Shown in pieces: positions 8,286-23,960 of a stretch of 64,000 bases of DNA. The notes beneath the pieces were generated by a model that was not told where the DNA came from, did no database searches, and saw nothing but the letters and a program-made list of their open reading frames with translations. This DNA is from Rhizobiaceae bacterium CPCC 101076. GTDB lineage: Bacteria > Pseudomonadota > Alphaproteobacteria > Rhizobiales > Methylopilaceae. Location of the stretch: positions 124,001 to 188,000 of the forward strand of contig QDFX01000004.1 in assembly GCA_003347645.1 (NCBI GenBank). The letters run 5' to 3'. Each line of letters begins with the position of its first letter. Within the stretch, counting starts at the first letter, position 1. Position numbers and translations under genes: made by a program.

Positions 8286-8352
8286 GCACTTCCGACTTCG
8301 CCCGACGGGCATCGCTGGTTATGGTGTCCCGCATGTGTGCGGGGCGTTGTTG

Positions 8353-9847: not shown

Positions 9848-11560
9848 TTGCGCTACGCTCGGTGCGCGGGGCAAGCTCGGCCCGGAATCTGGTTGGGAAC
9901 CCGTCGCTTGGCCGAACTCGCCGCCCCGGAACTTCTCAGCGAGATCGAGGCCGCGGTCTACGAATGGACCGTATCTTCCGACACCCTGACCTGGTTCCCG
10001 AAACCTCCGCCCGCCCTCTCGGGACGCGATCTCTCGAGCGGCCAGGCCTGGGCCGCCTCCACCGACCCCGATGCCATGACGTCCCGTCACACCGCGATCT
10101 TCGGTTCGACCGCTCGCGACGAGGGCGAGGGCGTTGCGTATGAACTGGAATATCCGGTCCGCATCGACGGCCGGGACGGTCCACGGCATGTCTGGATCGA
10201 GGATGTCGGCCATTGGTATGCTGGCGCCGACGGCTTGCCTGCGCGCGCCCGCGGCATGATCCGTGTCGTAACGGGACGGCACGAGGCGGAGCAGCGCCTC
10301 GCGATCCAGACCCGGTTCGACCCGCTCACGGGTACGCTGAACCGGCTGAAACTGCTCGACGTGCTGGAAAGCATGCTGGCCGACGGCAAGCGCTATCGGA
10401 CCTCCTGTTCCTTCCTCCTTCTCGCCGTCGAGAACATCGGCGCGCTGAACGAGGCGTACGGAGACACGACTCCGGACGAGATCATCGCGGGCGTCGCCAA
10501 GCGCCTCCGGTCCAGGATGCGCACCGGCGACGCGCTCGGCCGCTTCTCGACCACGATCTTCGGCCTCGCGCTTGCCAATTGCGGGCTGACGGAACTCGGC
10601 GTCGCCGCCCGCCGCTTCATGGATGCGGTCCACGAGGAGCCCATCGAAACCTCCGCCGGTCCGGTCGGCGTCCGCGTCACCGGAGCCGGCATCGTCGGTC
10701 CTCGCCACGCCCAGAGCCAGGTCGAAATGGTCGCCCGGGTCTCGGAAACGCTCGCCGAGGCCCGTCGCAAGAGGCGCGGCGCATTCATGCCTTTCGCGCC
10801 CAGTCAGGCTCGAGACGACCGCCGCCGTCGCTACGTCCAACTCGCGGACGAGTTGATGGCCGCGCTGAACACAAACAAGGTGTCTCTGGTTTTTCAACCG
10901 GTGGTTCGCGCCAGGGACGGCGCCGTCATCTGGCATGAAGCCCTTGCCCGCCTCGAAGTAGCCGGAGACCAGGCCTCTCTCAGCGCTCATATCGAGGCGG
11001 CGGAGAAGCTCGGCCTCGTCCATCTTCTCGACCGTCGCGTTCTCGACCTCGTCGTCGCCGCGCTCGAGGCCAACCCCCACGCCGTCATCGCGGTAAATGT
11101 CTCCGCGGACACCGCCGTCGATCCGGAATGGCGCGATCGCGTTCTTCACCTGCTCAAGGTGAAGCCGGCAATTGCGGGCCGGCTTCACGTCGAGATCACG
11201 GAGACCGCGGCGCTCGGCGATTTCGAAGAGACGACCGAGTTCGTCAAGACGCTACGCGAGGCCGGCGTCCAGGTCGCGATAGACGATTTCGGCGCCGGTC
11301 AGACCTCGTTCCGTACCCTGCGTGGCCTGGGCGTCGATCTGGTCAAGATCGACGGCGCGTTCGTCAGGGGCCTAGCCAATTCGACGGAAGACCGCGCCTT
11401 CGTCCGCGCGATCGTCGAACTGGCGCGCGAAATCGGTTTCGAAACGGTCGCCGAGAGCGTCGAGACTGAGGAGATCGCCAAGGTCCTCACGGAGCTCGGC
11501 GCCAGCTACCTGCAGGGCGACTTCTACGGATCCCCGGGTCCGCTGCTCGCCACAGGTTGA
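9848..11560 (+). CDS. PAS-like/GGDEF(degenerate)/EAL cyclic-di-GMP phosphodiesterase
   Basis: A 570-aa soluble protein. Residues about 25-145 look like a PAS-type input domain. Residues 150-310 form a GGDEF fold with the normal entry motif DPLTGTLNR, but the active-site GGDEF is replaced by STTIF (residues 234-238), so cyclase activity is unlikely. The EAL domain (about 330-565) keeps EAL at 364-366, 'HVEITET', 'AIDDFGAGQTSFRTLRGLGV', 'LVKIDGAFV', 'ESVETEE' and 'LQGDFYGSPGPL', and should be able to hydrolyse c-di-GMP. The TTG at 9848 has no clear ribosome-binding site; a TTG at 9908 is an alternative. Confidence 0.87.
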   Translation: MRYARCAGQARPGIWLGTRRLAELAAPELLSEIEAAVYEWTVSSDTLTWFPKPPPALSGRDLSSGQAWAASTDPDAMTSRHTAIFGSTARDEGEGVAYELEYPVRIDGRDGPRHVWIEDVGHWYAGADGLPARARGMIRVVTGRHEAEQRLAIQTRFDPLTGTLNRLKLLDVLESMLADGKRYRTSCSFLLLAVENIGALNEAYGDTTPDEIIAGVAKRLRSRMRTGDALGRFSTTIFGLALANCGLTELGVAARRFMDAVHEEPIETSAGPVGVRVTGAGIVGPRHAQSQVEMVARVSETLAEARRKRRGAFMPFAPSQARDDRRRRYVQLADELMAALNTNKVSLVFQPVVRARDGAVIWHEALARLEVAGDQASLSAHIEAAEKLGLVHLLDRRVLDLVVAALEANPHAVIAVNVSADTAVDPEWRDRVLHLLKVKPAIAGRLHVEITETAALGDFEETTEFVKTLREAGVQVAIDDFGAGQTSFRTLRGLGVDLVKIDGAFVRGLANSTEDRAFVRAIVELAREIGFETVAESVETEEIAKVLTELGASYLQGDFYGSPGPLLATG

Positions 11561-11613: not shown

Positions 11614-12396
11614 ATGATCCGCAGATCAAACGCCGCATTGCGCGAAGTCTCACAACCCGATGAGGAGCCTCGCTCTCTCACCGCCGAGACGCGTCCACGA
11701 CTTCCGCTGGCTTTCGGCGTTTCGGCTCTCGATTCACATCTGGCAGACGGCGGACTGGCTCGCGGCGCGCTGCACGAGATTGCAGACAATGGCGACAACG
11801 TCGTTGATGGCGCCGCTGCCACGTTGTTCGCCGAGGGAATCGTGGCGAGGGCCGGAGGCGCAGTTTTGTGGTGCGTCGGCAAGCCGGACCTCTTCGCGCC
11901 GGCCACGGGGCAGGCGGGGCTCGCCACGTCGCGCCTGAGCTATGTCGAGGCCGGCAGCCACAAGGAATTGGTCAGCCGCGCGGAAGCCGCCCTTTCGTCC
12001 GGCGCGTTCGGTTCGGTCGTTATTGAAACGGCGGCGCTGACCACGACGGCGTTGCGACGGTTGCAGCGGTCGGCGGAAAGCACAGGCGCCCTCGGCATCA
12101 TCATCCGTCGCGGGCCCCCAGGGAAAGCAACCGCGCTTCTCGCAACCCAATGGCGGATAGGCTCGCTGCAGGTGACTTCGACGCGCTCGCGCTGGAACGT
12201 CGAACTCGTCCACGCGACCAATGGCGCAACGACGAACGTCGTCATCGAGGCCTGCGACGAGCAGGGCCGCGTCGCGATCCCGACGCTCGTGTCCGACGGG
12301 CATGCCGGATCGAATATCGCGCGGCGCTTCGCCGCTACCCAGGCGGCGCGGGCAACGCCCGTCCGCGCTCCGTTATCGATGGTCAGGGGTGACTGA
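11614..12396 (+). CDS. imuA: ImuA-like RecA-fold accessory protein of the mutasome
   Basis: ImuA normally works with the Y-family-like ImuB and the polymerase DnaE2 in SOS mutagenesis. The 260-aa product has the ImuA layout: 'LAFGVSALDSHLADGGLARG' with 'ALHEIAD', then 'GGAVLWCVGKPDLFAPATGQ', 'SGAFGSVVIETAALTTTALR', 'TQWRIGSL' and 'RSRWNVELVHATNG'. The Walker A region is degenerate, as in other ImuA proteins. The ATG at 11614 lies directly after the LexA box, so either the message is leaderless or a downstream start is used. Unusually, imuB and dnaE2 do not follow: the next DNA is a tctA remnant on the other strand. Confidence 0.82.
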   Translation: MIRRSNAALREVSQPDEEPRSLTAETRPRLPLAFGVSALDSHLADGGLARGALHEIADNGDNVVDGAAATLFAEGIVARAGGAVLWCVGKPDLFAPATGQAGLATSRLSYVEAGSHKELVSRAEAALSSGAFGSVVIETAALTTTALRRLQRSAESTGALGIIIRRGPPGKATALLATQWRIGSLQVTSTRSRWNVELVHATNGATTNVVIEACDEQGRVAIPTLVSDGHAGSNIARRFAATQAARATPVRAPLSMVRGD

Positions 12397-12617
12397 CCGC
12401 CTGCCCGTTCATGTCCTGCAAACGGGGCGTTCTCCTCAGCCTCGATCCGTGCCTGACGACGCTTTCCGATGAACGTCATCGCCAGCGAGAACACCATCAT
12501 CGCGATGATCGCCAATGCCGCCGGCCTATGAATGATGTAGAGGAGATTGCCGCCCGAAAGCTGGTTCGAGCGCAGCAGCTCCGTCTTGAGCATCCGCCCC
12601 AGTAGGCCGATGACGAC
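12397..12617 (-). pseudogene. Remnant of a TctA-type tricarboxylate transporter permease (C-terminal fragment)
   Basis: One minus-strand frame encodes 'GLLGRMLKTELLRSNQLSGG' and then 'IIHRPAALAIIAMMVFSLAM', which resembles the C-terminal end of TctA large permease subunits (GRmlEteLRrSllLSgGd, then RPia and the last membrane helix). Only about 70 of some 500 residues remain. There is no start codon, and the frame runs on without its own stop into the antisense of imuA. No tctB or tctC is nearby. I read it as a decayed scrap left by a rearrangement. Confidence 0.6.
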
Positions 12618-12651
12618 CGCGGCTCGTCTGACGCCGGAATCCGAAGCGGGA

Positions 12652-13254
12652 TCAGGGGTCCAGGTGGCGCATCGCCTCAAGATCGTTCGGCTCATCGACG
12701 TCGAGGAGCACGCCCGGATCGTCGGTATCGACGACCGCTAGGTTCGTGCCCAAAGCTTTCAGGATGGCCCGGGCTCCAATGTCGCCGCTTAGCGATGCGA
12801 CCTCGTCGAACAGGGAACGGCGAAGAAGCACAGGGTGCCCCCATTGCCCTTGGAAAGCCGGGACGGCGGCCGGGCGCGACCCGATGGTCGACAGCAGATC
12901 GGCGGCCATCGAGTGAGGCACTCGCGGCATATCTCCCAGGAACACGAAAACCGCGTCGGCCGATGCCGGCAAAGCCTTGATGCCGGCCCTCAGGCTGGCG
13001 GACAGGCCGTGCCCATGGTCCGCGGCGTGGATGGCTGAGATACGGCCTCCATGACGCTTGGCGGCGCGCTCCACCTCTTTACGATTCGCTCCCGTGACGA
13101 GAACGATCGTTAGCGCGGGAGAGGCCAGCGCCGCATCGATGGCTCCGTCGAGGAGCACGCCTTGCTGCCAAGGCGCGAGCAACTTGCGTCCACCGAAGCG
13201 TGTCGCAGCCCCACCCGCGAGGACGAGGGCGTGGACGTCCCTCGCAGTGGTCAT
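12652..13254 (-). CDS. MobA/MocA-like molybdopterin nucleotidyltransferase
   Basis: A 200-aa NTP transferase with the N-terminal motif 'ALVLAGGAATRFGGRKLLAP', the central 'FVFLGDMPRVP' and 'PAFQGQWGHPVLLRRSLFDE'. This family attaches CMP or GMP to molybdopterin or is otherwise used in cofactor maturation. Next to xdhC and a xanthine dehydrogenase-family enzyme, a MocA-type role (molybdopterin cytosine dinucleotide) is most likely. The ATG at 13254 gives the usual N-terminus; the in-frame extension to 13389 lies over xdhC. It is the last gene of the eleven-gene minus-strand operon, four bases after xdhC. Confidence 0.85.
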   Translation of the reverse strand: MTTARDVHALVLAGGAATRFGGRKLLAPWQQGVLLDGAIDAALASPALTIVLVTGANRKEVERAAKRHGGRISAIHAADHGHGLSASLRAGIKALPASADAVFVFLGDMPRVPHSMAADLLSTIGSRPAAVPAFQGQWGHPVLLRRSLFDEVASLSGDIGARAILKALGTNLAVVDTDDPGVLLDVDEPNDLEAMRHLDP

Positions 13255-13258
13255 AGGC

Positions 13259-14299
13259 TCAGGCCGACACCGCCGGCACCGTGTCGATCCGATTGGCAGG
13301 CTCGGAACGGACAGTCCGCTGGTGCTGCGCGGCATGCGCTGTGGCGATGATCTCCGCATAGATCGCCGTCGCGATCTCCCACGGGGCACGACCGCCGAGC
13401 GACAGGCCGATCGGGGCTTTCAGGCGGGCGATATTGTCGTCCGACAATCCCGCCATGCGCAGACGCTCCAGTTTCCCCGGCAGGCGGCGCGAGCTTCCGA
13501 GCAGTCCGACATAACCGGCGGCGGAGGGAAGCGCCGCCATCAGCGATGCGTGATCGTGGATTTCGTCGTGGAGCGCAATGACGACGGCGGTCCAGGGATC
13601 GAGGCCGATCGTGGCCAGCGCCTCGGAAGGCGACGAGCGATGATAGGCTATGCCCGCCACCGGCGGCGGCGAGAGCGGACCGTTCGGCCGAACGAGCATG
13701 ACTTCCGCGCCAGCCTGGGTCGCCAGCGCGCACAGAGCCAGCGACATCGGATCGGCGCCGAGAACGACGACGCGCTGGCGCGGGTCGAACCGGCGGACGA
13801 CGACATCGTCGTCTCCCGTCGCCGGCCGCTGGCCCTGCTCGGTCAGGCACATGCGCTCGCGCCCATTGGTCAGCCACAGCGCGGGCTGCCGGGCTTCGGT
13901 GAGAGTGATGAGCCGGGCCGCCGCCGGGTCGTCGGGCAATACGCGCTCGATCAGGACCTCGATCCGTCCGCCGCATGGCAGGCGGATATCGATCGGGCCG
14001 CCCTGGCCGTAGACCAGCCAGCGCGGCTGGCCGTCGGCGATGACGGCGCGGCCGTGAAGCACGATATCGGCCTCGACGCAGCCGCCGGACAGATAGCCGG
14101 ACGCGCCGTCCGAGGTGACGAGCATCTGGGCGCCGACGCCACGAGGAGCGCCGCCCTGGGCCGCGAACAAAGTGACGAGCGCCACCGCGCGATTGCGATC
14201 CAGCTCGGCCCGGAGCGCCGGGCGGATGTCGTCGACCAGACCGAACAGGGGCCAGTCATCCTGCGGACTTCCGATGACGGGACCGGTTTCTTCCATCAT
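13259..14299 (-). CDS. xdhC: XdhC/CoxI family molybdenum-cofactor insertion protein
   Basis: The 346-aa product has an N-terminal XdhC/CoxI domain ('ALVTLFAAQGGAPRGVGAQM', 'GYLSGGCVEADI', 'RLPCGGRIEVLIE') and a C-terminal Rossmann domain ('RVVVLGADPMSLALCALA', 'ALHDEIHDHASLMAALPSAA', 'YVGLLGSSRR', 'LKAPIGLSLGGRAPWEIA'). XdhC proteins bind and sulfurate the cofactor before insertion into xanthine dehydrogenase-type enzymes. The obvious client is the Mo subunit encoded at 17889-20060 in the same operon. Its start overlaps the soxA stop (ATGA type), indicating coupling with the sulfur genes. Confidence 0.9.
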   Translation of the reverse strand: MMEETGPVIGSPQDDWPLFGLVDDIRPALRAELDRNRAVALVTLFAAQGGAPRGVGAQMLVTSDGASGYLSGGCVEADIVLHGRAVIADGQPRWLVYGQGGPIDIRLPCGGRIEVLIERVLPDDPAAARLITLTEARQPALWLTNGRERMCLTEQGQRPATGDDDVVVRRFDPRQRVVVLGADPMSLALCALATQAGAEVMLVRPNGPLSPPPVAGIAYHRSSPSEALATIGLDPWTAVVIALHDEIHDHASLMAALPSAAGYVGLLGSSRRLPGKLERLRMAGLSDDNIARLKAPIGLSLGGRAPWEIATAIYAEIIATAHAAQHQRTVRSEPANRIDTVPAVSA

Positions 14300-15072
14300 G
14301 GCCTTACTCCCGGCGTCTCGACCGCAAGGCCGGACGCGCGCGTATTAAGATAAGCTTCGAGATCGATGAATTCCTGCGAACCGAATTCGTAAGGCTCGGC
14401 CCTGACGCCGACCATGCAATTACGCATGCGGCGCTGGAGCGAGCCGACCGACTGCCATTCCAGGCGATAGATCGGATAGCCCGTCGGATGGGCCTGCGTG
14501 ATCGGGCTGCCGCCGAGGCGCTTGTCCCAATTGTCGTCATGACAGGACGCGCAGGAGAGATCGAGCTGGCCGATCCTCGCCTCGAACAGGCGTTTGCCAT
14601 TTTCCCGCGACGGCGTCAGCCGCTCGTCGACGGGCGGCGCGACGGGCATTCCGCGCGATTGAGTGCCGACATAGGTGGTGAGCGCGAGAAGTTCCTCGCT
14701 TCCGCGCGGAAACGGTTCGGCCGTTTGCTTGTCCCGGCGGCAAAGCTTGATGCGGCCCGCGAGATCGATCGCCTTGCCGGACGTCTCGTCAAACGCCGGA
14801 TGACGGGCGGCGGCGCCTCGCATGCTGACCTCGGCATCGCCGTGGCAGGAGGCGCAACTTTTCATCGCGGGACCGACCGGCTCCCGCCACAGACGTTCGC
14901 CGTCGAGCACCGAGAACATCCCCGGATTGCTCGTATCGTCCGCCTGCATCGCCTGTGTCTCCCTCGACATGAATCCGCTTCCTGACTTCTTTTCTTCTCC
15001 CGCGATCTCCGCCATCGCACCGCCACCAAAAATGATCGCGAAAACCGCGAGGCCAGGCTTTCGCCACACCAT
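14296..15072 (-). CDS. soxA: Sulfur-oxidation cytochrome c subunit SoxA-like
   Basis: A 258-aa periplasmic c-type cytochrome. A signal peptide covers about residues 1-21. Two heme motifs CASCH are present (Cys73/Cys76/His77 and Cys174/Cys177/His178), so it is a diheme type. The conserved SoxA segment 'QRRMRNCMVGVRAEPYEFGS' supplies Cys219, the cysteine that ligates the active-site heme and carries the persulfide in known SoxA. With SoxX it oxidatively couples sulfur compounds to the SoxY arm. It overlaps soxZ upstream and xdhC downstream by a few bases. Confidence 0.92.
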   Translation of the reverse strand: MVWRKPGLAVFAIIFGGGAMAEIAGEEKKSGSGFMSRETQAMQADDTSNPGMFSVLDGERLWREPVGPAMKSCASCHGDAEVSMRGAAARHPAFDETSGKAIDLAGRIKLCRRDKQTAEPFPRGSEELLALTTYVGTQSRGMPVAPPVDERLTPSRENGKRLFEARIGQLDLSCASCHDDNWDKRLGGSPITQAHPTGYPIYRLEWQSVGSLQRRMRNCMVGVRAEPYEFGSQEFIDLEAYLNTRASGLAVETPGVRP

Positions 15073-15395
15073 CAGTTCACCGCGATTTCGGCCGTCGCCG
15101 TCTGCGTCTGGCCGTCGTCACCAGTCCAGGCGAAGGTGATCGTGCCGCTCTCGGTCGCGACCGTCGAGAAGGCGATGAACGGATTGGCCGATACGGCAGG
15201 GAACAGATCTGCGGAGAAAATCTCCGCGCCGCCATAGGTGCAGACGAAGCGGTTGATGATGTCGCGCGGGATCATCTGGCCGTTCGGGCCTTGCCGGTAG
15301 CCGGTCTCCATCTTGTGCGCGATCATCGCCCTGATCTCGATGATGTCGCCCTTGCGCGCCGTCTTCGGCGCATTGATGAGCGCGCGGGCGGTCAT
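15072..15395 (-). CDS. soxZ: Sulfur-oxidation carrier partner SoxZ-like
   Basis: The 107-aa product has the SoxZ pattern: 'INAPKTARKGDIIEIRAMIA' with 'HKMETGYRQGPNG', 'INRFVCTYGGAEIFSADLFP', 'FIAFSTVATESGTITFAWT' and a final 'AEIAV'. SoxZ is an immunoglobulin-like protein that dimerises with SoxY in the periplasm; it has no signal peptide itself and is exported with its partner. Start and stop overlap soxY and soxA. Confidence 0.92.
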   Translation of the reverse strand: MTARALINAPKTARKGDIIEIRAMIAHKMETGYRQGPNGQMIPRDIINRFVCTYGGAEIFSADLFPAVSANPFIAFSTVATESGTITFAWTGDDGQTQTATAEIAVN

Positions 15396-15865
15396 GACAA
15401 GTCCTCAATGCAGGCGGCGAGCGTGACGATGACGCTTGCCCGGCTCGACCAGAAACTGCCGTCCGTCAGCTCGGCGATCGCGACGACCGTCTGCGACGTG
15501 GCGAGGCGGATGCGCGACGAGACGCGGGCCCGGCCGGAGCGCGGACCAAGGTGGAAGATGGCGATGTCGGCCTGCGGATTCTTCTCGTTGAACAGCGCGA
15601 TGCGACGGACATGATCCTCGGCCGTCATCGGGCTCTCGACATCGATCGTGACGCCCACCGCGTTGCCGTTTTCGAGCAACGGCGGAATGTCGAGCTTCAC
15701 CCGGCCGTCGTTCAGAGCCTTGCCGCCGGTGAAACCCCGGATCGCGTCATCCAGCGTCGGGCGGGCAAGGACCGCTCGGGGCAACGTGAGCACGACGAGC
15801 CCGGCACCCGCACCGAAGATGAGGTCGCGCCTTGCGAGACGGATGCTGGTCGGACCGGACATCAT
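15392..15865 (-). CDS. SoxY-related protein with an AACIE arm
   Basis: A 157-aa Tat-exported protein: an RR motif (ARRDLIF) precedes a hydrophobic core, then the SoxY domain ('DDAIRGFTGG', 'GRVKLDIPPLLENGNAVGVT', 'HVRRIALFNEKNP', 'TSQTVVAIAELTDGSFWSS'). In genuine SoxY the chain ends in GGCGG, whose cysteine carries the sulfur substrate. Here it ends VTLAACIEDLS: Cys152 is kept but its context is AACIE with five residues after the cysteine. I recall that such proteins are set apart in protein-family databases as SoxY-related AACIE-arm proteins with unproven cargo. Stop overlaps soxZ, start overlaps soxX. Confidence 0.88.
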   Translation of the reverse strand: MMSGPTSIRLARRDLIFGAGAGLVVLTLPRAVLARPTLDDAIRGFTGGKALNDGRVKLDIPPLLENGNAVGVTIDVESPMTAEDHVRRIALFNEKNPQADIAIFHLGPRSGRARVSSRIRLATSQTVVAIAELTDGSFWSSRASVIVTLAACIEDLS

Positions 15866-16302
15866 TAATCCTTCAACGTCACGAGATAGGCGACGATATC
15901 CTCGATTTCAGCGGGGTCGAGGATGGTTTTGCCGCGCCATGCCGGCGCCGTGCCCGGATTGTCGGTGGTCTTGAGATAGGACGGCATCAGGCTGGCCGGG
16001 TTGAGCGCCTTCGCATCGACGACACGAAGGCGGATCTGTGCCTCCGAAAGTCGCGACCCCACGCCGGTCAGATCTGGCGCGAGATTTCCCTGTAGATGCG
16101 GTTCGGGGAACGGACCCATATGGCAGAGAACGCAAAGCGAGCGGTGGCGATCCATGATCAGCCGCAAGCCGTTGGCCGGATCGCCAGGCCGGCCGGTGAG
16201 CGAGACCGGGATCGTGTCGCCGCTGACGGCATACGGCACCGGACCATTCTGCGCCGCGGCAGGCGTGACGCCCAGCATAGCGGCGAGGACAAGGGTCTTC
16301 AC
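15865..16302 (-). CDS. soxX: Sulfur-oxidation monoheme cytochrome SoxX-like
   Basis: A 145-aa cytochrome with an N-terminal signal peptide ending at AAAQ. The heme site is Cys57/Cys60/His61 (CVLCH), and Met106 in 'NPASLMPSYL' is the likely axial ligand. The 'GNLAPDLTGVGSRLSEAQIR' segment and the spacing are typical of SoxX, the electron-accepting partner of SoxA. The gene lies between the flavoprotein gene and soxY, overlapping both by one to four bases. Confidence 0.92.
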   Translation of the reverse strand: MKTLVLAAMLGVTPAAAQNGPVPYAVSGDTIPVSLTGRPGDPANGLRLIMDRHRSLCVLCHMGPFPEPHLQGNLAPDLTGVGSRLSEAQIRLRVVDAKALNPASLMPSYLKTTDNPGTAPAWRGKTILDPAEIEDIVAYLVTLKD

Positions 16303-17573
16303 GCGAAAACCTCGCCCGTGATCGTGCGGAACCAGCTGTCCGCGTAGACCGCCTCGGCGGCCCGCACGGATGCGGGAGCGCTGAGCGGGCTCGTGCCGCC
16401 CGCCCCTTCGACCTCCGCCAGCAGACCGTCCTTCGGCCGATACACGCCTGCAATGGAAATACCGTAGTCCGGCGCGACGAGACTATAGCAGGTGTTGATC
16501 AGCTTCGGCTCGGCCGGCTTCCGGTCACGCAGGAGCGAGATCACGGCCGCGGCGCAGACCTTCGCCTGGGCGTTGGCGGTGAAGGCCGATTTGGGCATCG
16601 CGCCACCAATGGCGGCATCGCCAATGACATGAATTCCCGGCTGGAGCTTCGATTCGAACGTCACCGGATCGATCGGGCACCAGCCGGTCTGGTCGGCGAC
16701 GCCGGCCATCGCGGCGATGGCTCCGGCACGCTGCGGCGGGATGACGTTCGCGACATCGGCCTCGTGGTTGCCGAACTCCGTGATGAGCGTCTTCGTCGAC
16801 GGGTCGACCTCGGTGACGCGCCCGCCCATGGACAGCGACACCCATTCGATTAAACCGGGATAGAGCTCCTGCCATGCAGCCTGGAACAGGCGCTGCTTCG
16901 AGAACTGGTCCTTGGCGTCGAGGATGATCAGCTTCGACTTCGGCTTCGAGAGCTTGAGGTAGTGCGCGATCAGGCTGGCGCGCTCGTAGGGTCCCGGCGG
17001 ACAGCGGAACGGGTTCGGCGGCGATGAGATGACCACTGTGCCGCCGTCCGCCATCTCCGCGAGCTGGCGGCGCAGGAGCACGGTCTGGCCACCGGCCTTC
17101 CAGGCATGCGGCATCGCCTCGACAGCGGTTTCGGAATAGCCGGGGATGGCGTCGAACCGGAGATCGACGCCCGGCGCCACGACGAGGCGCGCATACTCGA
17201 TCTCGGCTCCGTCGGCGAGACGAACCCTGCGGGCAGCATGGTCGACGCCGGTTGCGGCCTGATGCACGACCTCGATGCCGTCGCGGCGCACGCCGTCATA
17301 GGTGAACTGCTGCGCCTCGATCTCGCGCAGGCCGGCGATCACCTCATTGCTGAACGGACAGGCCGTATAGAGCGTCTGCGGCTCGACCAGGGTCACCGCG
17401 AGATTGTGATCCTCCTGTTTCAGCGCGCGGGCGCAGCTCGCGCCGGCGAAACCGCCGCCGATGACGACCACGCGGCTCTGCGCCTGTCCGATGGCTGGCG
17501 GAGCGCCGAGCGCGGCGACCGCGCCGGAGGCGGCGACGCCCTGAAGGACCGTCCTACGGCTTGGCTGACGCAT
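16299..17573 (-). CDS. fccB: Flavocytochrome c sulfide dehydrogenase, flavoprotein subunit (FccB/SoxF-like)
   Basis: A 424-aa Tat-exported FAD enzyme. The N-terminus has SRRTVLQG and a hydrophobic core, then a Rossmann fold 'RVVVIGGGFAGASCARALKQ'. The two redox-active cysteines of the FccB/SoxF family are present in 'LYTACPFSN' (Cys72) and 'NPFRCPPGPYERAS' (Cys191), with 'IHVIGDAAIGGAMPKSAFTA' near the end. It should oxidise sulfide or a related sulfane species and pass electrons to the small cytochrome encoded immediately upstream, with which it overlaps by 20 bases. Confidence 0.9.
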   Translation of the reverse strand: MRQPSRRTVLQGVAASGAVAALGAPPAIGQAQSRVVVIGGGFAGASCARALKQEDHNLAVTLVEPQTLYTACPFSNEVIAGLREIEAQQFTYDGVRRDGIEVVHQAATGVDHAARRVRLADGAEIEYARLVVAPGVDLRFDAIPGYSETAVEAMPHAWKAGGQTVLLRRQLAEMADGGTVVISSPPNPFRCPPGPYERASLIAHYLKLSKPKSKLIILDAKDQFSKQRLFQAAWQELYPGLIEWVSLSMGGRVTEVDPSTKTLITEFGNHEADVANVIPPQRAGAIAAMAGVADQTGWCPIDPVTFESKLQPGIHVIGDAAIGGAMPKSAFTANAQAKVCAAAVISLLRDRKPAEPKLINTCYSLVAPDYGISIAGVYRPKDGLLAEVEGAGGTSPLSAPASVRAAEAVYADSWFRTITGEVFA

Positions 17574-17856
17574 GGTCTTTACTCGCGAGCCAGTTGGCGA
17601 TGGCGCGCGTCTCCCCGTCCGAGAAACCCTTGGCGATGCGGTCCATCACCGTCGCAGGACGGCTGCCGGACCGGAACGCCTGCATGTCGGCGACGATCGA
17701 TTCCGGCGTCCGGCCCGAAAGGGTCGGAACGGGCAGGTCACGACCGGCCGGCGCATGGCATCCTGCACATGCTGTTGCACCGGCCGGCGCTTCGGCGGCT
17801 ACAGGCATCGCTGCAACGACGCCGAGCACCGCGAGCAGGAGAAGCTCGCGGCGCAT
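17554..17856 (-). CDS. fccA: Small c-type cytochrome, FccA-like subunit
   Basis: A 100-aa monoheme cytochrome with a signal peptide (about residues 1-22) and the heme motif Cys30/Cys33/His34 (CAGCH), followed by 'PVPTLSGRTPESIVADMQAF' and 'IAKGFSDGETRAIANWLAS', the pattern of FccA/class I sulfide dehydrogenase cytochromes. I placed the start at ATG 17856; the in-frame extension to 18120 is antisense-like Arg-rich sequence. It overlaps fccB by 20 bases, so the two are almost certainly subunits of one enzyme. Confidence 0.87.
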   Translation of the reverse strand: MRRELLLLAVLGVVAAMPVAAEAPAGATACAGCHAPAGRDLPVPTLSGRTPESIVADMQAFRSGSRPATVMDRIAKGFSDGETRAIANWLASKDHASAKP

Positions 17857-17888
17857 CGATCTGCCGCCTGGACTCGCCACGATCCCGC

Positions 17889-20060
17889 TCAGGCCAGATC
17901 GTGGTTCTTCAGCGGCAGGGTGCGGATACGCTTGCCCGTCGCCGCGAAGAGCGCATTGAGAACCGCCGGAGCCGCGACCGCGATCGTCGGCTCGCCAACG
18001 CCGCCCCAGAAACCGCCCGACGGCAGGATGATCGTCTCGACCGCCGGCATCTCGGCCATGCGGAGCACGTCGTAGGTGTCGAAATTCTCCTGCTCGATCC
18101 GGCCGTTCTTGACCGTGCATTCGCCATAGAGGCTGGCGGAAAGGCCGTAGACGAACGAGCCCTCGACCTGCCGTTCAATCTGCGCCGGATTGACCATGTG
18201 GCCCGGATCGGTGGCCGCGACGATGCGGTGGATCTTGAGACGCCCGTCGGTCACCGACACTTCGGCGGCGGCGGCGACATAGCTGCCGAAGCCCATGATC
18301 TGGGCGAGGCCGCGATGAACGCCCTGCGGCGGGGCCTTGTCCCAGCCGACGCCCTCGGCGACCGCGTTCAGCACCGCGAGGTGCTTCGGGTGCTTCGCCA
18401 TCAGCTTGCGCCGGAATTCCAGCGGATCGACGCCGGCCGCATGGGCCAGTTCGTCCATGAAGGATTCCACGTAGATCGCATTCTGGTTGAGGTTGACGCC
18501 GCGCCAGAAGCCCGGCGGGATCGGCGGATTGCGCATCGCATGGTCGATCACGAGGTTCGGGATCGTGTAGCCGAGATGGCCTTCCGGACTGCTCGCGGTG
18601 AGGCCCTGGAAGACGACCGGATCCATGCCGCCCTGCATGCCTTCCGGCCGCACCGTCGCAAGGATCGACTGGCCGGAAATCCGCATATGCAGCGCCGTCA
18701 GATTGCCCTGCGCGTCGAGCGCGCCGGTCATCTTGCACTGCGTCGTCGGATGGTAGGCGCCGTGGAGCATGTCTTCCTCACGCGTCCAGAGCAGCTTCAC
18801 ATGCGTGCCGGGAACCTCCTTGGCGAGGAGCACGGCCTGCCGGACATAGTCCTGGAAATTGCCGCGCCGACCGAAGCCGCCGCCAAGATGCACTTTGTGG
18901 ACGTCGCACTTCTGCACCGGCAGGCCGGCGGCTTCGGCCGCAACTGCGAGGCTCGATTCACCGTTCTGCGTCGGCACCCAGACTTCGCAGCGATCGGGCG
19001 TATAGAGCGCCGTGGCGTTCATCGGCTCCATCGTGGCGTGGTTCTGGTACGGAAAGGCGTAGGTCGCGGTGACCACCTTGCCGCCACCGGAGAATTGCGC
19101 CTGCACGTCGCCCACCTTGGTCGACACGAAGGCGTCGTTGGCATCGAGACCGGCCTTGAGCATTTCGGCGATAGAAGCGGTCGAGACATCCTTGTTCGGA
19201 CCCTCGTCCCAGGTCACCGGGAGGGCATCGAGCGCGGTCTTCGCCCGCCACCAGGTATCGGCAATGACCGCGACCGTGGTGTCGTCGATCTTCACGATTT
19301 TCTTCACGCCGGGCATGCCGGAGACGGCAGCCGCATCGAAACTCGCGACCTTGCCGCCGAAATGCGGGCAGGCCCGAACGGCAGCGTTCAGCATCCCGGG
19401 GAATTTCAGGTCGGCGCCATAGACCTGCTTACCCGTCAACTTGTCGGCCGTATCGAGGCGGGGCAGCGGCTTGCCCGCGATCGTCCAGTTCTTCGGATCC
19501 TTCAGCGCGATATTACCGGGAGGCGTCTGCTTCGCGGCAGCTTCGGCGACCTTGCCGTAGGTCGTGGTGCGCTTGCTCGGATTGTGAGTGATCACACCCT
19601 TTGAGACCGAGCACTCCGAGCGCGGAACCTTCCACTCGGCAGCGGCGGCGGCGACCAGCATTTCACGCGCGGCGGCTCCGCCCTGGCGCACGTAGTCGTG
19701 CGACTCCCGGATACCGCGGCTGCCGCCTGTCGAATAATTGCCCCAGACACGGTTGCGGGCGAGATTCTGGCCGGGCGACGGATATTCCGTCGTGACCTTC
19801 GACCAGTCGCATTCCAGTTCCTCGGCGACGAGCTGGGCGAGACCGGTCAACGTGCCCTGCCCCATTTCCGAGCGGGCGATGCGGATGACCACCGTCTCAT
19901 CCGGCTTGATGACCACCCAGGCATTCACTTCCGGAATGGTCGCGCCCTGGGCCAGGGCCTCAGGCGTGAACGGGATGTGGAAGCCGAGCGAGAAGCCGCC
20001 GACTGCGGCGGCGGAGCCGACAATGAAATTGCGGCGCGAAACCTTGGTTGCGATCGTCAT
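17889..20060 (-). CDS. Xanthine dehydrogenase-family molybdopterin-binding subunit (IorB-like)
   Basis: A 723-aa molybdenum hydroxylase large subunit. A Tat signal ('SRRNFIVGSAAAVGG') shows export to the periplasm, typical of the isoquinoline 1-oxidoreductase beta/aldehyde oxidoreductase group. Cofactor-contact regions include 'ARSEMGQGTLTGLAQLVAEE', 'VHLGGGFGRRGNFQDYVRQA' and the C-terminal 'GFWGGVGEPTIAVAAPAVLN'. The group is often annotated isoquinoline oxidoreductase, but the substrate cannot be predicted. Its 2Fe-2S partner and a cytochrome c are encoded directly upstream and maturation factors downstream. The start ATG 20060 was chosen for the Tat signal; the longer frame to 20414 is antisense to the small subunit. 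Confidence 0.9.
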   Translation of the reverse strand: MTIATKVSRRNFIVGSAAAVGGFSLGFHIPFTPEALAQGATIPEVNAWVVIKPDETVVIRIARSEMGQGTLTGLAQLVAEELECDWSKVTTEYPSPGQNLARNRVWGNYSTGGSRGIRESHDYVRQGGAAAREMLVAAAAAEWKVPRSECSVSKGVITHNPSKRTTTYGKVAEAAAKQTPPGNIALKDPKNWTIAGKPLPRLDTADKLTGKQVYGADLKFPGMLNAAVRACPHFGGKVASFDAAAVSGMPGVKKIVKIDDTTVAVIADTWWRAKTALDALPVTWDEGPNKDVSTASIAEMLKAGLDANDAFVSTKVGDVQAQFSGGGKVVTATYAFPYQNHATMEPMNATALYTPDRCEVWVPTQNGESSLAVAAEAAGLPVQKCDVHKVHLGGGFGRRGNFQDYVRQAVLLAKEVPGTHVKLLWTREEDMLHGAYHPTTQCKMTGALDAQGNLTALHMRISGQSILATVRPEGMQGGMDPVVFQGLTASSPEGHLGYTIPNLVIDHAMRNPPIPPGFWRGVNLNQNAIYVESFMDELAHAAGVDPLEFRRKLMAKHPKHLAVLNAVAEGVGWDKAPPQGVHRGLAQIMGFGSYVAAAAEVSVTDGRLKIHRIVAATDPGHMVNPAQIERQVEGSFVYGLSASLYGECTVKNGRIEQENFDTYDVLRMAEMPAVETIILPSGGFWGGVGEPTIAVAAPAVLNALFAATGKRIRTLPLKNHDLA

Positions 20061-20071
20061 GTCCGCCTCCC

Positions 20072-20539
20072 TCAACCGGCTTGGGTGGAGCCGCCCTTGG
20101 CGGCCTCTTTGATCGCGGCGCGGACACGATTGTACGTCCCGCAGCGGCAGATATTGGTGATCTCGGCGCTGATATCCTCGTCGTTCGGATTCGGATTCTG
20201 CTGAAGCAGACCGGCCGCCGCCATGATCATGCCGGGCTGACAATAGCCGCACTGCGGCACGTCGAGCGCGAGCCAGGCCTTCTGCACCGGATGGGAGCCG
20301 TCCGGCGACAGGCCCTCGATGGTGACGATCTTCTGCTCCGGAGCGATTGCGTTGATGGGCATCGCGCAAGAGCGCGTCGCGATTCCGTCGATGTGAACCG
20401 TGCAAGCGCCGCACTGAGCGATGCCGCAGCCGAACTTGGTGCCGGTCAACCCGGCCTGCTCGCGGATCACCCAGAGTAGCGGCGTTTCGGGATCGACATC
20501 GAAGTCGCGTGCCTCGCCATTAATCGTCAGTCGAGCCAT
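20072..20539 (-). CDS. (2Fe-2S)-binding small subunit of the molybdenum hydroxylase (IorA-like)
   Basis: The 155-aa subunit carries two 2Fe-2S clusters. The plant-type ferredoxin cluster is bound by Cys38, Cys43, Cys46 and Cys58 ('[17 protein letters not shown]', 'RSC'), and the second by Cys97, Cys100, Cys131 and Cys133 ('[12 protein letters not shown]', 'CRCGTY'). It transfers electrons from the Mo centre to an acceptor, here probably the neighbouring cytochrome c. It has no signal peptide and would leave the cell folded with the Tat-targeted large subunit. Eleven bases separate it from that gene. Confidence 0.95.
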
Positions 20540-20564
20540 GTTGATCTCCTCCTGAGTTCGGCTG

Positions 20565-20957
20565 TCACTGGGCTGCTGGTGTTTGCGAGGAAAGACCGCG
20601 CAGATAGGCGACGATCGCGCCGCGCTGCGTCTGGTCGCGCAGGCTGATCGTCATCGTGGTGTTGGGAACGAGCTTGCGGGGATCATCGAGATAGGCGTTC
20701 AGCGTCTCGTCGCTCCACACGATGCCTGCATTCTTCAGAGCATCGGAGTAGCGGGCGCCTTCAACGGTGCCAGCTTTCCGGCCGAACACGCCCGACAGGT
20801 TTGGGCCGACCCGGGTCTGGCCGGGCTGGACGCTGTGGCATGTCCCGCAGCGCTGCTGGAAAAGACGCTGGCCGTCAGCCGAGGCGTCCTGCGCCTGCGC
20901 CGAGCCGATACTGAAACTTGAGACGACTAGAGCTGAAGCGAAAAGCCTGAGGCTCAT
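20565..20957 (-). CDS. Class I cytochrome c (c2-like)
   Basis: A 130-aa periplasmic cytochrome: signal peptide to about residue 22 (AQA), heme motif Cys37/Cys40/His41 (CGTCH), '[20 protein letters not shown]' and '[20 protein letters not shown]' containing the axial methionine, the pattern of cytochrome c2/c-550. As first gene of the minus-strand operon it is the natural electron acceptor for the molybdenum hydroxylase and perhaps for the FccAB and SoxXA proteins encoded after it. It lies 131 bases from the end of the histidine kinase gene, the only gap large enough for the operon promoter. Confidence 0.93.
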
Positions 20958-21088
20958 TTGGACACTCCGATAACCGGCGCGGAGTGTGCACTTGGAAGGC
21001 CTCTAAACTTTGCCACCTGGATCGCGAAGTGTCAGCGAATGTCGCGGAAAGAAGCTTCGGCCAAACTTTGATACAAATAACGGTCGGA

Positions 21089-22597
21089 TCATTCGGCCGG
21101 CGAATTACCCCAGGCAAGCGGCTGGTTAGGAACGGGTTCCGCCTTTGAAGCCTTGCGGGCTTTATCGACGGGCTGCGTCTGCGGCAGCGTGATGGTCGCG
21201 CGGAGTCCGGTGCCGGTATTGGCGAGAACGATATCGCCGCCATGGTGCCGGACGATATCGCGTGCGATCGACAGGCCGAGCCCGATACCACCAGTCTCGC
21301 GGTTGCGGGAATCCTCCAACCGGAAGAACGGGGCGAAGACGCGCTCGACCGTATCGACCGGAATTCCCGGGCCGTCATCCTCGATCATGATGTTGATCGC
21401 GGCCGCGTTCGCCCGGAGACTGACGCGCGCACGCTCGCCATAGCGGACAGCGTTCTCGATCAGATTGCGCACGGCGCGCTTCAGCGAGTCCGCGCGGCAG
21501 CGATAGCCGATCTTCGGCGCCTCGGTGAACGTCACGTCGTGGCCGATTTCGGCGATGTCGTCGCAGAGGCTGCCGACGAGCGCCGTCAGATCGACGTTTC
21601 GCGTTTCTTCCTCGACCGCCTCGTCGCGGGAGAAGGCGAGCGTCGCCTCCGTCATCTGCCGAAGCTCGTCGAGCGTGCTCAGCATCTTCTCGCGCGTCTC
21701 GTCGTCGGAGACGAACTCGGCGCGCAGGCGCAGCGATGTCAGCGGCGTGCGCAGATCATGACCTATGGCGGCGAGCATGCGCGTGCGGTCCTCGACGAAG
21801 CGCTGCAGACGCGCTTGCATCAGGTTGAACGCTTCCGTCGTCTGGCGGATGTCGTCCGGCCCGCGCTCGGGCAAAGGTGGCACGCTTTCGCCGCGCCCAA
21901 GCGCTTCGGCGGCAACCGCGAGGCGGCGCATCGGGCCGGTCATGCCGCGCGCGATCAAAGCGGCGCAGATGGAAAGGATGATCGCGGTTACGGTCAGCGA
22001 GATCAGGGACCGCGACGTCCACATCCCGTTGATGATCTTCTTGGAAAAGGCGGTGTTCAGCCAAGTTCCGTCAGCGAGCTGGACGGTGAGACCCATGCCC
22101 ATGCCTTGGGGCTGGTTCAGATAGAGAAACTTCGCCGAACGGGAGAGCGGCCACGCATGAGCTGGCAGGTCGCCCCATGCAGGAAGCTGTTCGGTCGCAA
22201 CGCTGGTGGGACCGGCCGTTTCCGGCGCATGAGGTGGTACGGGCTCGCTCACGCCATTGGCGATCTTCTGCACAGTTGGCAGGGGTTCGGCGAGACGAGC
22301 CTTGGCGTCCCGGCGCCAGGACGCCGCATCCTCGGGAAAGTCATGCGAGATCCAAAATCGCGAATAGGTCGTGCCGCTGGCGAGAAGGACATCCGCGTGC
22401 ACATCGGATGGCGTCGATTCCAGGACCTTGGCCACAGAGGCGCAGCGGCTAAGAAATTCGGCCTTCGCCGATCTGAACAGAGCCTCGTCGCGCTCGGTGC
22501 TGAACAGCAGCAGGCTGATGCCCTGCGACAAAGCGAGCGCGAACAGCATCACCGCGATGAAGCGGGCGGCGAGGCTCTTGTTCCAGAGGCTGATCAT
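21089..22597 (-). CDS. EnvZ-type sensor histidine kinase
   Basis: A 502-aa inner-membrane kinase. A first membrane helix (about residues 12-32) and a second (about 200-222) enclose a roughly 165-residue periplasmic sensor domain. HAMP sequence follows, then the H-box 'LAAIGHDLRTPLTSLRLRAE', N-box 'NLIENAVRYG', 'EDDGPGIP' and 'GGIGLGLSIARDI', all intact. The response regulator stop overlaps its ATG at 22597 (ATGA), so they are co-translated. It lies immediately upstream of and in the same direction as the sulfur/molybdenum operon, a possible target. The stimulus is unknown. Confidence 0.92.
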   Translation of the reverse strand: MISLWNKSLAARFIAVMLFALALSQGISLLLFSTERDEALFRSAKAEFLSRCASVAKVLESTPSDVHADVLLASGTTYSRFWISHDFPEDAASWRRDAKARLAEPLPTVQKIANGVSEPVPPHAPETAGPTSVATEQLPAWGDLPAHAWPLSRSAKFLYLNQPQGMGMGLTVQLADGTWLNTAFSKKIINGMWTSRSLISLTVTAIILSICAALIARGMTGPMRRLAVAAEALGRGESVPPLPERGPDDIRQTTEAFNLMQARLQRFVEDRTRMLAAIGHDLRTPLTSLRLRAEFVSDDETREKMLSTLDELRQMTEATLAFSRDEAVEEETRNVDLTALVGSLCDDIAEIGHDVTFTEAPKIGYRCRADSLKRAVRNLIENAVRYGERARVSLRANAAAINIMIEDDGPGIPVDTVERVFAPFFRLEDSRNRETGGIGLGLSIARDIVRHHGGDIVLANTGTGLRATITLPQTQPVDKARKASKAEPVPNQPLAWGNSPAE

Positions 22598-23313
22598 GCG
22601 GACGAAATCTCCGCGGAGAAGCTGTAGCCGCCACCCCAATGCGTCTTGATCAGCGCTGGAGTCTTCGGATCGGCCTCGATCTTCTTGCGAAGTCGGCTGA
22701 CCTGATTGTCGATACTGCGATCGAACGGATCGGCGGTGCGGCCCACCGTCAGATCGAGAAGCTGGTCGCGGCTGAGGACTAGGCCGCCGTGATCGAGGAA
22801 TACGCTGAGAAGTCGGAATTCGGCCGTGCTCAGCGGCACGATCATGCCGTCCTGGTCGGTCAGTTCGCGCCGGCCGACATTGAGCGACCAGCGGTCGAAC
22901 GCAACCTCCTTGGCTTTGATCTGGCCGCGCTGCGGCGGCAGGCTCTGCACGCGGCGAAGCACGGCCTTGATGCGAGCGAGAAGTTCCCGGGGATTGAACG
23001 GCTTGGAAAGATAGTCGTCCGCTCCGAGCTCGAGCCCGACGATGCGGTCAGTCTCCTCCGCCATCGCGGTCAGCATGATGACCGGAAGGCTGGTCGATTC
23101 ACGGATATACCGGCACAGGGAGAGCCCGTCCTCTCCGGGCATCATGACGTCGAGCACGACGAGATCGATGCCGTTGCGCTCGATCAGCTTACGGCACGCG
23201 GCCGCGCTGTCGGCGAGGCTGGTCCGATAGCCATGCTTGCTGAGGTATTTGCCGACTAGGTCGCGGATGTCGCGATGGTCGTCGACAATGGCGATGTGTG
23301 GCACCGCATCCAT
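22594..23313 (-). CDS. OmpR-family response regulator
   Basis: The 239-aa regulator has a receiver domain (residues 1-120; Asp11/Asp12, phosphoacceptor Asp55 in 'VVLDVMMPGEDG', the conserved 'PVIMLTA' and Lys in 'DDYLSKPFNP') and a winged-helix DNA-binding domain ('LSTAEFRLLSVFLDHGGLVL', 'DRSIDNQVSRLRKKIEADPK', 'HWGGGYSF'). It is coupled to the downstream EnvZ-type kinase. Targets are not evident; the cytochrome/Mo hydroxylase/sox operon beyond the kinase is the first candidate by position. Confidence 0.93.
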   Translation of the reverse strand: MDAVPHIAIVDDHRDIRDLVGKYLSKHGYRTSLADSAAACRKLIERNGIDLVVLDVMMPGEDGLSLCRYIRESTSLPVIMLTAMAEETDRIVGLELGADDYLSKPFNPRELLARIKAVLRRVQSLPPQRGQIKAKEVAFDRWSLNVGRRELTDQDGMIVPLSTAEFRLLSVFLDHGGLVLSRDQLLDLTVGRTADPFDRSIDNQVSRLRKKIEADPKTPALIKTHWGGGYSFSAEISSA

Positions 23314-23511
23314 GAGAGAGCTCCTGAAAGGTTCTCTACCCCCGTCTCTCCGAGTGTACAGGGGAAAATTGTATCAAAACGTCCCCCGTTCGTGCAGCGC
23401 GACAACCAACGACAAAGTGGGCTTCCGGCGGGAAGTCTCTGCGACATTGGCCGCCTAGATTAGCGGCGTTCGGGCGGTCACGGTTCCCGCCGCCCGGGCT
23501 GTCCCCCGTCG

Positions 23512-23541
23512 ACGCCGCCGGCCCAGCCGGCGGCGTTTTCT
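23512..23541 (+). terminator. Orphan intrinsic terminator
   Basis: ACGCCGCCGGC (23512-23522) and GCCGGCGGCGT (23526-23536) form an 11-bp GC stem with a CCA loop, followed by TTTTCTTC on the plus strand. No plus-strand gene lies upstream of it; the nearest upstream plus-strand coding sequence is imuA, more than 11 kb away. The gap 23314-23758 otherwise holds no gene I can support. A second hairpin (CGGGCGG with CCGCCCG, about 23471-23495) precedes the terminator, so an unannotated small RNA is possible. Confidence 0.7.
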
Positions 23542-23758
23542 TCGAGTCCCGGCAAATGGATCGCGCCGCGGGCGAACTTGTAACGAAATATCGCTCATTG
23601 GGCGGTGGTCAACAAAGGATATCAAACCGCCTGCTCGCCGGCGAATTTCTGCGACATCCCTGCATTAGCCTCGGCATCAGTTCGGAAAGCGTGAAATCAG
23701 AAGCTCTGTTGCTTCGCCCAGCGACGCCTTGCGTCGGCTTCTCACAAGGAGATCGGCC

Positions 23759-23884: not shown

Positions 23885-23960
<76 letters not shown>

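Follow-up and report, generated by a model that had tools for sequence, protein, structure and literature searches.

In a 64,000-nucleotide stretch of the genome of Rhizobiaceae bacterium CPCC 101076 (contig QDFX01000004.1, positions 124,001 to 188,000; hereafter the window), an operon joins genes for an IorAB-like molybdenum (Mo) hydroxylase to soxXYZA genes whose SoxY relative ends in an arm with the motif AACIE. That IorAB and the Sox genes of AACIE type belong to a conserved functional unit is near certain: IorAB adjoins soxXYZA in all 19 loci with an [A/S]AC arm that we read in other genomes and in none of 21 other loci. The first-pass annotation of this DNA had proposed such a unit from the window; the proposal is borne out, and the association between the Mo enzyme and AACIE-type SoxY is far stronger than that annotation could tell. 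The core set of eight genes, iorAB-fccAB-soxXYZA, occurs in many soil and water bacteria, which suggests that a so far undescribed pathway of sulfur or carbon oxidation operates outside the cell membrane.

By score, the window SoxY is a member of TIGR04487, the 'SoxY-related AACIE arm protein' family, and lies under the cut-off of TIGR04488, the model for SoxY with a GGCGG arm (scores in the table below). The first-pass annotation, which spoke of a named family, thus agrees with NCBIfam. The motif was read directly from the DNA at the C-terminal arm (VTLAACIEDLS, then stop); the SoxY stop and SoxZ start share the tetranucleotide ATGA. We surveyed 398 genomes of the phylum with the TIGR04487 profile, which matched in 120 at E 1e-3 and exceeded its cut-off in 15. 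Approximately 20 kb was then read around 40 matches in other genomes, hand-picked down the score list and hence a non-random sample. Nineteen of these had an arm of the form [A/S]AC followed by other residues (hereafter AAC loci). Among the remaining 21, 16 arms read GGCGG, one NGCK (L045) and one SGCGM (L049); L044 runs on into a longer frame, and the arms of L050 and L051 went unread. The system extends beyond the TIGR04487 model, since five of the 19 Mo-linked AAC loci score under its cut-off; two plasmid records annotate their SoxY relative under the TIGR04487 name. Counted by genome, with the window genome included, a close IorB (at least 60% identity) was found in 23 of the 398: all 20 genomes with AAC-type SoxY (seven genera by genome codes; AAC status taken from the family score and the loci read, arms not each inspected) and 3 of the 378 others.

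A wider search, with an alignment of 16 SoxY sequences against genomes of 84,980 species, returned 467 relatives, of which the best 80 were used (collection loci); together with the window and the 19 AAC loci they make up a set of 100. SoxX, soxY, soxZ and soxA were matched in 80 of the 80 collection loci, iorB in 75, iorA in 73, fccB in 76 and an fccA homologue in 67. Four of the five loci that miss iorB are cut off by contig ends (L081, L099, L119 and L149). The fifth, in Methylobacterium sp. WSM2598 (L128), has iorA-iorB-fccA-fccB at approximately 1.8 Mb and soxXYZA at approximately 5.9 Mb of the same contig, some 4 Mb apart; the two halves together restore the core of eight genes, and the sox side carries transposase-like pieces, judged from translations without a family search. 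A plasmid of Roseomonas marmotae holds the same eight genes in another order, with fccAB after soxA. Conserved co-occurrence of the Mo hydroxylase with AACIE-type SoxYZ, whose absence would have counted against the proposal, therefore holds in the loci read, and even the split genome keeps both halves. Relatives in the collection include Mesorhizobium, Bradyrhizobium, Ancylobacter, Xanthobacter tagetidis, Chelatococcus, Azospirillum, Inquilinus, Methylobacterium, Belnapia and Microvirga, and a layout that recurs in approximately 100 loci is far from chance. In a SoxA tree, 31 Mo-linked sequences, chosen from 103 rows (102 genes, L128 and L225 being one gene), fell on one side of a branch and 25 others on the opposite side, with a support of 97/100. 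Distance correlations of IorB with SoxA, SoxZ and SoxY (0.89 to 0.92) and with FccB (0.77) had no background control and were not used as evidence.

The arm follows the same division. All 80 SoxY ends called among the 100 loci have Ala-Cys with an acidic residue two positions past the Cys. Eight further ends read SACTE... (four g147 loci) or AACLIG or AACVIG (four f18 loci), and those of twelve collection loci were not read. At the separate SoxB loci read in four AAC genomes (G335, G217, G035 and G202), SoxY has the terminal sequence VTVGGCGG or VTLGGCGG; GGCGG was also found at the SoxB loci of G289 and G382. In these six genomes, a GGCGG carrier thus accompanies SoxB and an AAC carrier IorAB. 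No second SoxY was found in the window genome by protein search or with the TIGR04487 profile. We also noted a third kind of SoxY in a Bradyrhizobium-like genome (L045, G217:C1:2838600-2858500), where the order is soxY-soxZ-fccA-fccB, the arm ends in EVATNGCK, and neither soxX nor soxA was matched. According to the accessible text of PMC5748708, Bradyrhizobium diazoefficiens has two soxY homologues, of which thiosulfate oxidation needs soxY1 only.

The accessory genes are less constant than the core. The first-pass annotation had described the Mo hydroxylase and its maturation genes as bracketing the sulfur genes and had asked whether IorAB, xdhC and FccAB co-occur with AACIE-type SoxY more often than with GGCGG-type SoxY. 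The bracketing is real in the window and IorAB does co-occur, but neither the bracketing nor xdhC proved general: xdhC was found in four of the 80 collection loci, three of them by a different IorB, mobA in none of the 80, and xdhC with mobA after soxA in only the four f18 loci among the 19 AAC loci. Nor is FccAB specific to AACIE-type loci, with fccB in 14 of the 19 AAC loci and in 11 of the 21 others; FccAB is absent from five AAC loci and also from L117 and L126. XdhC/MobA bracketing is thus idiosyncratic, and FccAB is optional. In L066-L069, the operon runs past soxA into a LysR-type regulator gene (seen in L066), xdhC, mobA and moaD/moaE/moeA-like genes (the last by eye), as if Mo cofactor synthesis travelled with the operon. 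Two further occurrences stand out by their setting. L113 and L114 are on contigs labelled as a Candidatus Marinimicrobia metagenome-assembled genome, with a SoxY identity of 59-60%, for which misbinning and transfer are both possible. L231, on the Neorhizobium galegae plasmid pNgVX (conjugative by PLSDB typing), carries the operon with two histidine kinase/response regulator pairs nearby; its iorB and fccA each match in two pieces and are absent from the listed annotation.

Catalytic residues are retained in the alignable rows of the Mo-linked loci. The counts are not independent, because the rows include close relatives. SoxY Cys152 is present in 88 of 88 rows, SoxA Cys219 and both CxxCH motifs in 100 of 100 (99 genes, that of G139 included), SoxX CxxCH and Met106 in 94 of 94, FccB Cys191 and Cys362 in 88 of 88 and Cys72 in 86 of 88, the eight Cys of IorA in 91 of 91, and IorB Glu695 in 92 of 92. 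With MoCoBD domains (PF02738/PF20256), the catalytic Glu and a 2Fe-2S subunit (PF01799), IorAB belongs to the xanthine-oxidase family, and no NCBIfam large-subunit equivalog passes its cut-off for IorB. FccB has the domains and redox cysteines of flavocytochrome c sulfide dehydrogenase, and both IorB and FccB match the twin-arginine translocation (TAT) signal model. We also considered SoxA Glu205 as a mark of a substrate other than thiosulfate: Glu is present in 100 of 100 Mo-linked rows and in none of 18 first controls, and the position, 14 residues ahead of the catalytic Cys, corresponds to that of TsdA Arg109, a residue in contact with thiosulfate (PMC4423706, accessible text). The argument was dropped when nine Bradyrhizobium-like SoxA beside SoxB proved to have Glu as well; the three of these that were read more widely carry a GGCGG SoxY.

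In the Sox system, SoxXA loads thiosulfate sulfur onto the SoxY cysteine. SoxB exceeds its cut-off in 15 of the 20 AAC genomes and SoxC in 10. Neither does so in the window genome (best SoxB match 24.8 bits, cut-off 550; best SoxC match 28.6 bits, cut-off 420) or in the four f18 genomes; SoxD was not searched for. These five genomes argue that the system is not canonical thiosulfate oxidation, with the caveat that truncated Sox systems also do without SoxCD.

A further line of evidence comes from IorAB that stands apart from soxYZ. The three non-AAC genomes with a close IorB are G139, G299 and G187; in addition, two g147 genomes have a second IorAB copy, which we read as well. G139, which is outside the 120 genomes matched by TIGR04487, has iorA-iorB-soxX-soxA (L226, 10961-12416) with no soxYZ beside; G299, G187 and the second g147 copies have IorAB without sox genes alongside. 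Strict monophyly of sox-linked IorB was considered and rejected: a first tree separated these sequences from the rest by a branch with an SH-aLRT of 91, and a second tree, with seven unlinked IorB (L222 being L201 of the first tree) and the split WSM2598 sequence added, nested four unlinked IorB inside, namely those of G139, G299 and G187 and the second copy of G292 (a quick tree with SH-aLRT only; the G299 row is flagged as long and the placement of L227 as unsure). Sox-linkage is therefore not perfectly monophyletic. Of 34 clade-specific IorB residues, G139 keeps 33, G299 28, G187 26 and the second G292 copy 32, against 24, 22 and 10 in three IorB from outside the clade; hence these residues cannot be taken as sox-specific. 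The same counts speak against the suggestion in the first-pass annotation that the AACIE carrier presents its cargo to the Mo enzyme. Rather, IorAB seems to act on a free small molecule, to which SoxYZ is an addition.

Our best reading, a tentative one, is that the substrate which IorAB oxidises is a free compound, aldehyde-like or organosulfur in nature, and that SoxXA and FccAB capture reduced sulfur on AAC-arm SoxYZ. The operon would then be one exported oxidation system feeding cytochrome c. IorAB, a TAT-signal Mo hydroxylase of the cytochrome-linked aldehyde-dehydrogenase type, would oxidise, at its carbon, a free small molecule that either contains reduced sulfur or gives it off. SoxXA would next couple the freed thiol or sulfide to AAC-arm SoxYZ, forming a disulfide or persulfide with the carrier Cys. 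In loci that have FccAB, this pair would take the electrons of sulfide or persulfide. SoxB and SoxCD would be uninvolved, in which case sulfur would have to exit the carrier by some other route. The gene set, its co-inheritance, the retained catalytic residues, the predicted export signals and the occurrence without SoxB or SoxC are read from sequence; the substrate class, the order of the reactions, the electron acceptor, the product and the route of sulfur release are what we infer. It is possible, if doubtful, that iorAB-fccAB-soxXYZA constitutes an undescribed periplasmic pathway for organic sulfur, independent of SoxB and SoxCD, in which the Mo hydroxylase opens or oxidises a small organosulfur compound on its carbon side and a dedicated carrier with an [A/S]AC arm binds the sulfur side in a mixed disulfide or persulfide.

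Genes near some of the loci give a weak hint at a thiol substrate. SBP56, of the methanethiol oxidase family, occurs in 10 of the 100 locus windows, all Bradyrhizobium or Bradyrhizobium-like (g6), and a Methylobacterium plasmid has mddA at a distance of approximately 8 kb from its operon copy. MtoX converts methanethiol to formaldehyde and sulfide. A methanethiol pathway, with MtoX feeding IorAB and Fcc/Sox, was considered and set aside: SBP56 was found in six of the 20 AAC genomes, the window genome not being among them, and its linkage is that of one lineage, which also weighs against the organosulfur reading as a whole. Three other points do so too. No gene for releasing sulfur from SoxY was seen in the eight-gene core. 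The four nested IorAB without soxYZ imply that the two activities, IorAB and Sox, are separable. Lastly, G139 retains SoxXA without soxYZ, so SoxXA may instead be the electron acceptor of IorAB.

That last possibility is part of an explanation that we regard as unlikely, in which the cargo is carbon: the Cys of AAC-arm SoxY would carry an aldehyde or acyl group, as a thiohemiacetal or thioester, for the Mo enzyme, and SoxXA would accept the electrons. A parallel exists in SoxYZ-S2 and SoxYZ-S4, which lie beside alcohol, methanol and formate dehydrogenases and for which a role in carbon metabolism was suggested (PMC11237559, accessible text), and IorB is nearest to an aldehyde dehydrogenase. 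By contrast, the SoxA catalytic Cys, kept in every row, and the retained redox cysteines of FccB argue for sulfur chemistry, and the IorAB residues mostly persist where soxYZ is gone. We consider it just as unlikely that the two halves are unrelated oxidation systems that are merely induced together and share no chemistry. The nested IorAB that do without sox fit such co-regulation, whereas the pairing, in the loci read, is limited to a single SoxY group distinguished by its arm, extends across many genera and outlives both splitting and reordering.

Less likely again is a role for IorAB as a substitute for SoxCD, oxidising sulfane sulfur on SoxY in a variant of inorganic sulfur oxidation. SoxC, a component of the other Mo enzyme of the Sox system, is indeed absent from the operon and below its family cut-off in half of the 20 AAC genomes; IorB, however, matches the xanthine-oxidase family with its catalytic Glu and not sulfite oxidases, IorAB persists without soxYZ, and five of the 20 AAC genomes have no SoxB over its cut-off to free the product. 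Protection, in which FccAB and SoxXYZA share no substrate with the Mo enzyme but remove sulfide or thiols toxic to Mo or haem enzymes, is improbable. FccB looks intact, and a protective role has been speculated for SoxYZ-S4 (PMC11237559, accessible text). FccAB, however, is the part most often missing, while L226 retains SoxXA. The least probable explanation, which we think very unlikely, is that SoxYZ persulfide re-sulfurates exported desulfo IorAB in the periplasm (Mo=S ligand repair): it would account for the tie to a Mo hydroxylase, for the dispensability of SoxB and SoxCD and for IorAB surviving without soxYZ, but the full cytochrome set seems beyond the needs of repair, L226 keeps SoxXA without SoxYZ, cytoplasmic XdhC is thought to sulfurate Mo enzymes already, and we know of no precedent.

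The operon itself occupies 12652-20957 and comprises eleven minus-strand genes, transcribed in the order cytochrome c, iorA, iorB, fccA, fccB, soxX, soxY-like, soxZ, soxA, xdhC and mobA/mocA-like, with neighbours that overlap or are at most 32 bp apart. This is the order first described, at nearly the same coordinates, and we re-chose the start codons of the mobA-like gene, fccA and iorB. A Pfam search of FccA at E 1e-5 gave no match.

Table. Genes of the Mo hydroxylase/Sox operon and of the adjacent two-component system, with window coordinates.
Feature	Position	Strand	Evidence
mobA/mocA-like Mo cofactor nucleotidyltransferase	12652..13254	-	PF12804 113.6 bits; best NCBIfam TIGR03310 MocA 126.7 bits, under cut-off 186
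xdhC-like Mo enzyme maturation (sulfuration) factor	13259..14299	-	PF13478, PF02625 over cut-off; NCBIfam equivalogs under cut-off
soxA, diheme cytochrome, active-site Cys219	14296..15072	-	TIGR04484 225 bits, cut-off 110; closest PDB 1h31
soxZ	15072..15395	-	TIGR04490 94 bits, cut-off 76
soxY-like carrier, arm VTLAACIEDLS	15392..15865	-	TIGR04487 213.1 bits, cut-off 172; TIGR04488 95.8 bits, cut-off 125
soxX, monoheme cytochrome c	15865..16302	-	TIGR04485 76 bits, cut-off 61
fccB (soxF-like) flavocytochrome c sulfide dehydrogenase flavoprotein	16299..17573	-	PF21706, PF09242; TAT model TIGR01409 over cut-off; closest PDB 5n1t, 474 bits
fccA, monoheme cytochrome c partner of FccB	17554..17856	-	one CxxCH; place between iorB and fccB
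iorB-like Mo hydroxylase large subunit, catalytic Glu695	17889..20060	-	PF02738, PF20256; TAT model over cut-off; closest PDB 8gy3_C
iorA-like 2x[2Fe-2S] small subunit	20072..20539	-	PF01799, PF00111
c-type cytochrome, probable electron acceptor	20565..20957	-	PF00034; homologue clustered in 22/100 loci
sensor histidine kinase, probable operon regulator	21089..22597	-	HAMP, HisKA, HATPase_c
OmpR-type response regulator	22594..23313	-	Response_reg, Trans_reg_C

The two-component system, which the first-pass annotation of the operon did not include, lies 131 bp upstream of it on the same strand. Its response regulator recurs in 38 of the 100 loci (the window and 37 collection loci) and the kinase in 37, and neither was found in the 19 AAC loci of the 398-genome survey; the pair is confined to the nearer relatives of the window. 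A related pair (response regulator 67%, kinase 48% identity) accompanies an IorAB of 45% identity and a c-type cytochrome, with no sox genes, in L230 (8509-13952), which suggests that what the pair senses may be tied to the Mo substrate. The flanking genes of the 100 loci, called by GC3 (a procedure that overlooks some genes and does not work on the low-GC g147 loci), were clustered in search of a further conserved gene from which the substrate could be named. The clustering returned the two-component system (38 loci), the small cytochrome c (22) and otherwise genes that look lineage-bound. In the window, the operon is flanked by genes for a transglycosylase (8107-9111, plus strand) and a GGDEF-EAL protein (9848-11560, plus strand), by a plus-strand gene at 11614-12396 that has no Pfam match at E 1e-5 and is ImuA-like by eye, and by tRNA-Ala(CGC) at 23885-23960 (minus strand). 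A scan of 12300-23700 gave no sigma-70-like sites and eight terminator-like sites, against 5.8 expected. The completeness of the window genome assembly is 98.86%.

These results give a named protein family a near-obligate partner enzyme, and its role thereby becomes a testable question in common laboratory strains of Mesorhizobium, Ancylobacter, Xanthobacter tagetidis, Bradyrhizobium and Methylobacterium. Genome surveys that take soxXYZA as thiosulfate oxidation may err for IorAB-linked loci, and, should the substrate prove to be organic sulfur, the sulfur cycles of soil and freshwater include a widespread link that has so far been missed. A survey of 1,634 SoxY sequences deleted entries without a GGC motif before analysis (PMC11237559, accessible text), a filter by which the AAC-arm group would have dropped out. 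A literature search, with most subscription papers outside its reach, found no paper on the function of the AACIE family or on a Sox-IorAB operon, and the accessible portions of PMC11237559, PMC5748708, PMC4782131, PMC4423706, PMC5336275, PMC10708946, PMC12815253 and PMC4003848 hold no description of an AACIE-SoxY/IorAB system that we could find.

Among known systems, the quinoprotein-associated SoxYZ carrier (TIGR04557; SoxYZ-S2 and S4) is alike in tying a divergent SoxY to a periplasmic carbon dehydrogenase (PMC11237559, accessible text). Unlike the window proteins, its members are SoxY-SoxZ fusions found with PQQ enzymes; the window SoxY and SoxZ are separate and accompanied by SoxXA and FccAB, the window scores of 54.3 and 38.5 bits are under the TIGR04557 cut-off of 140, and no PQQ dehydrogenase is among the operon genes. 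The membrane-bound aldehyde dehydrogenase of Gluconobacter (8gy3) aligns with window IorB over residues 4-721 of 723 (263 bits), and in the window, too, a 2Fe-2S subunit and a cytochrome c adjoin. The relationship is nevertheless distant; the clade of sox-linked IorB shows near-invariant residues peculiar to it, and the window has a small monoheme cytochrome only. FccAB/SoxEF (5n1t, 1fcd) resembles window FccB, with the redox and FAD cysteines kept, but is optional in this system, and the window FccA is very short. SAR324 bins combine flavocytochrome c by soxYZ with no other sox subunits and also contain an isoquinoline 1-oxidoreductase, whose linkage is not stated in the accessible text of PMC4782131. 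Canonical Sox shares with the window SoxX, SoxZ and SoxA that pass their NCBIfam equivalog cut-offs, as well as the SoxA and SoxY cysteines. It differs in its GGCGG arm and in having soxB and soxCD, which are missing from the window operon, whereas in the present system IorAB lies beside the sox genes or elsewhere in the genome.

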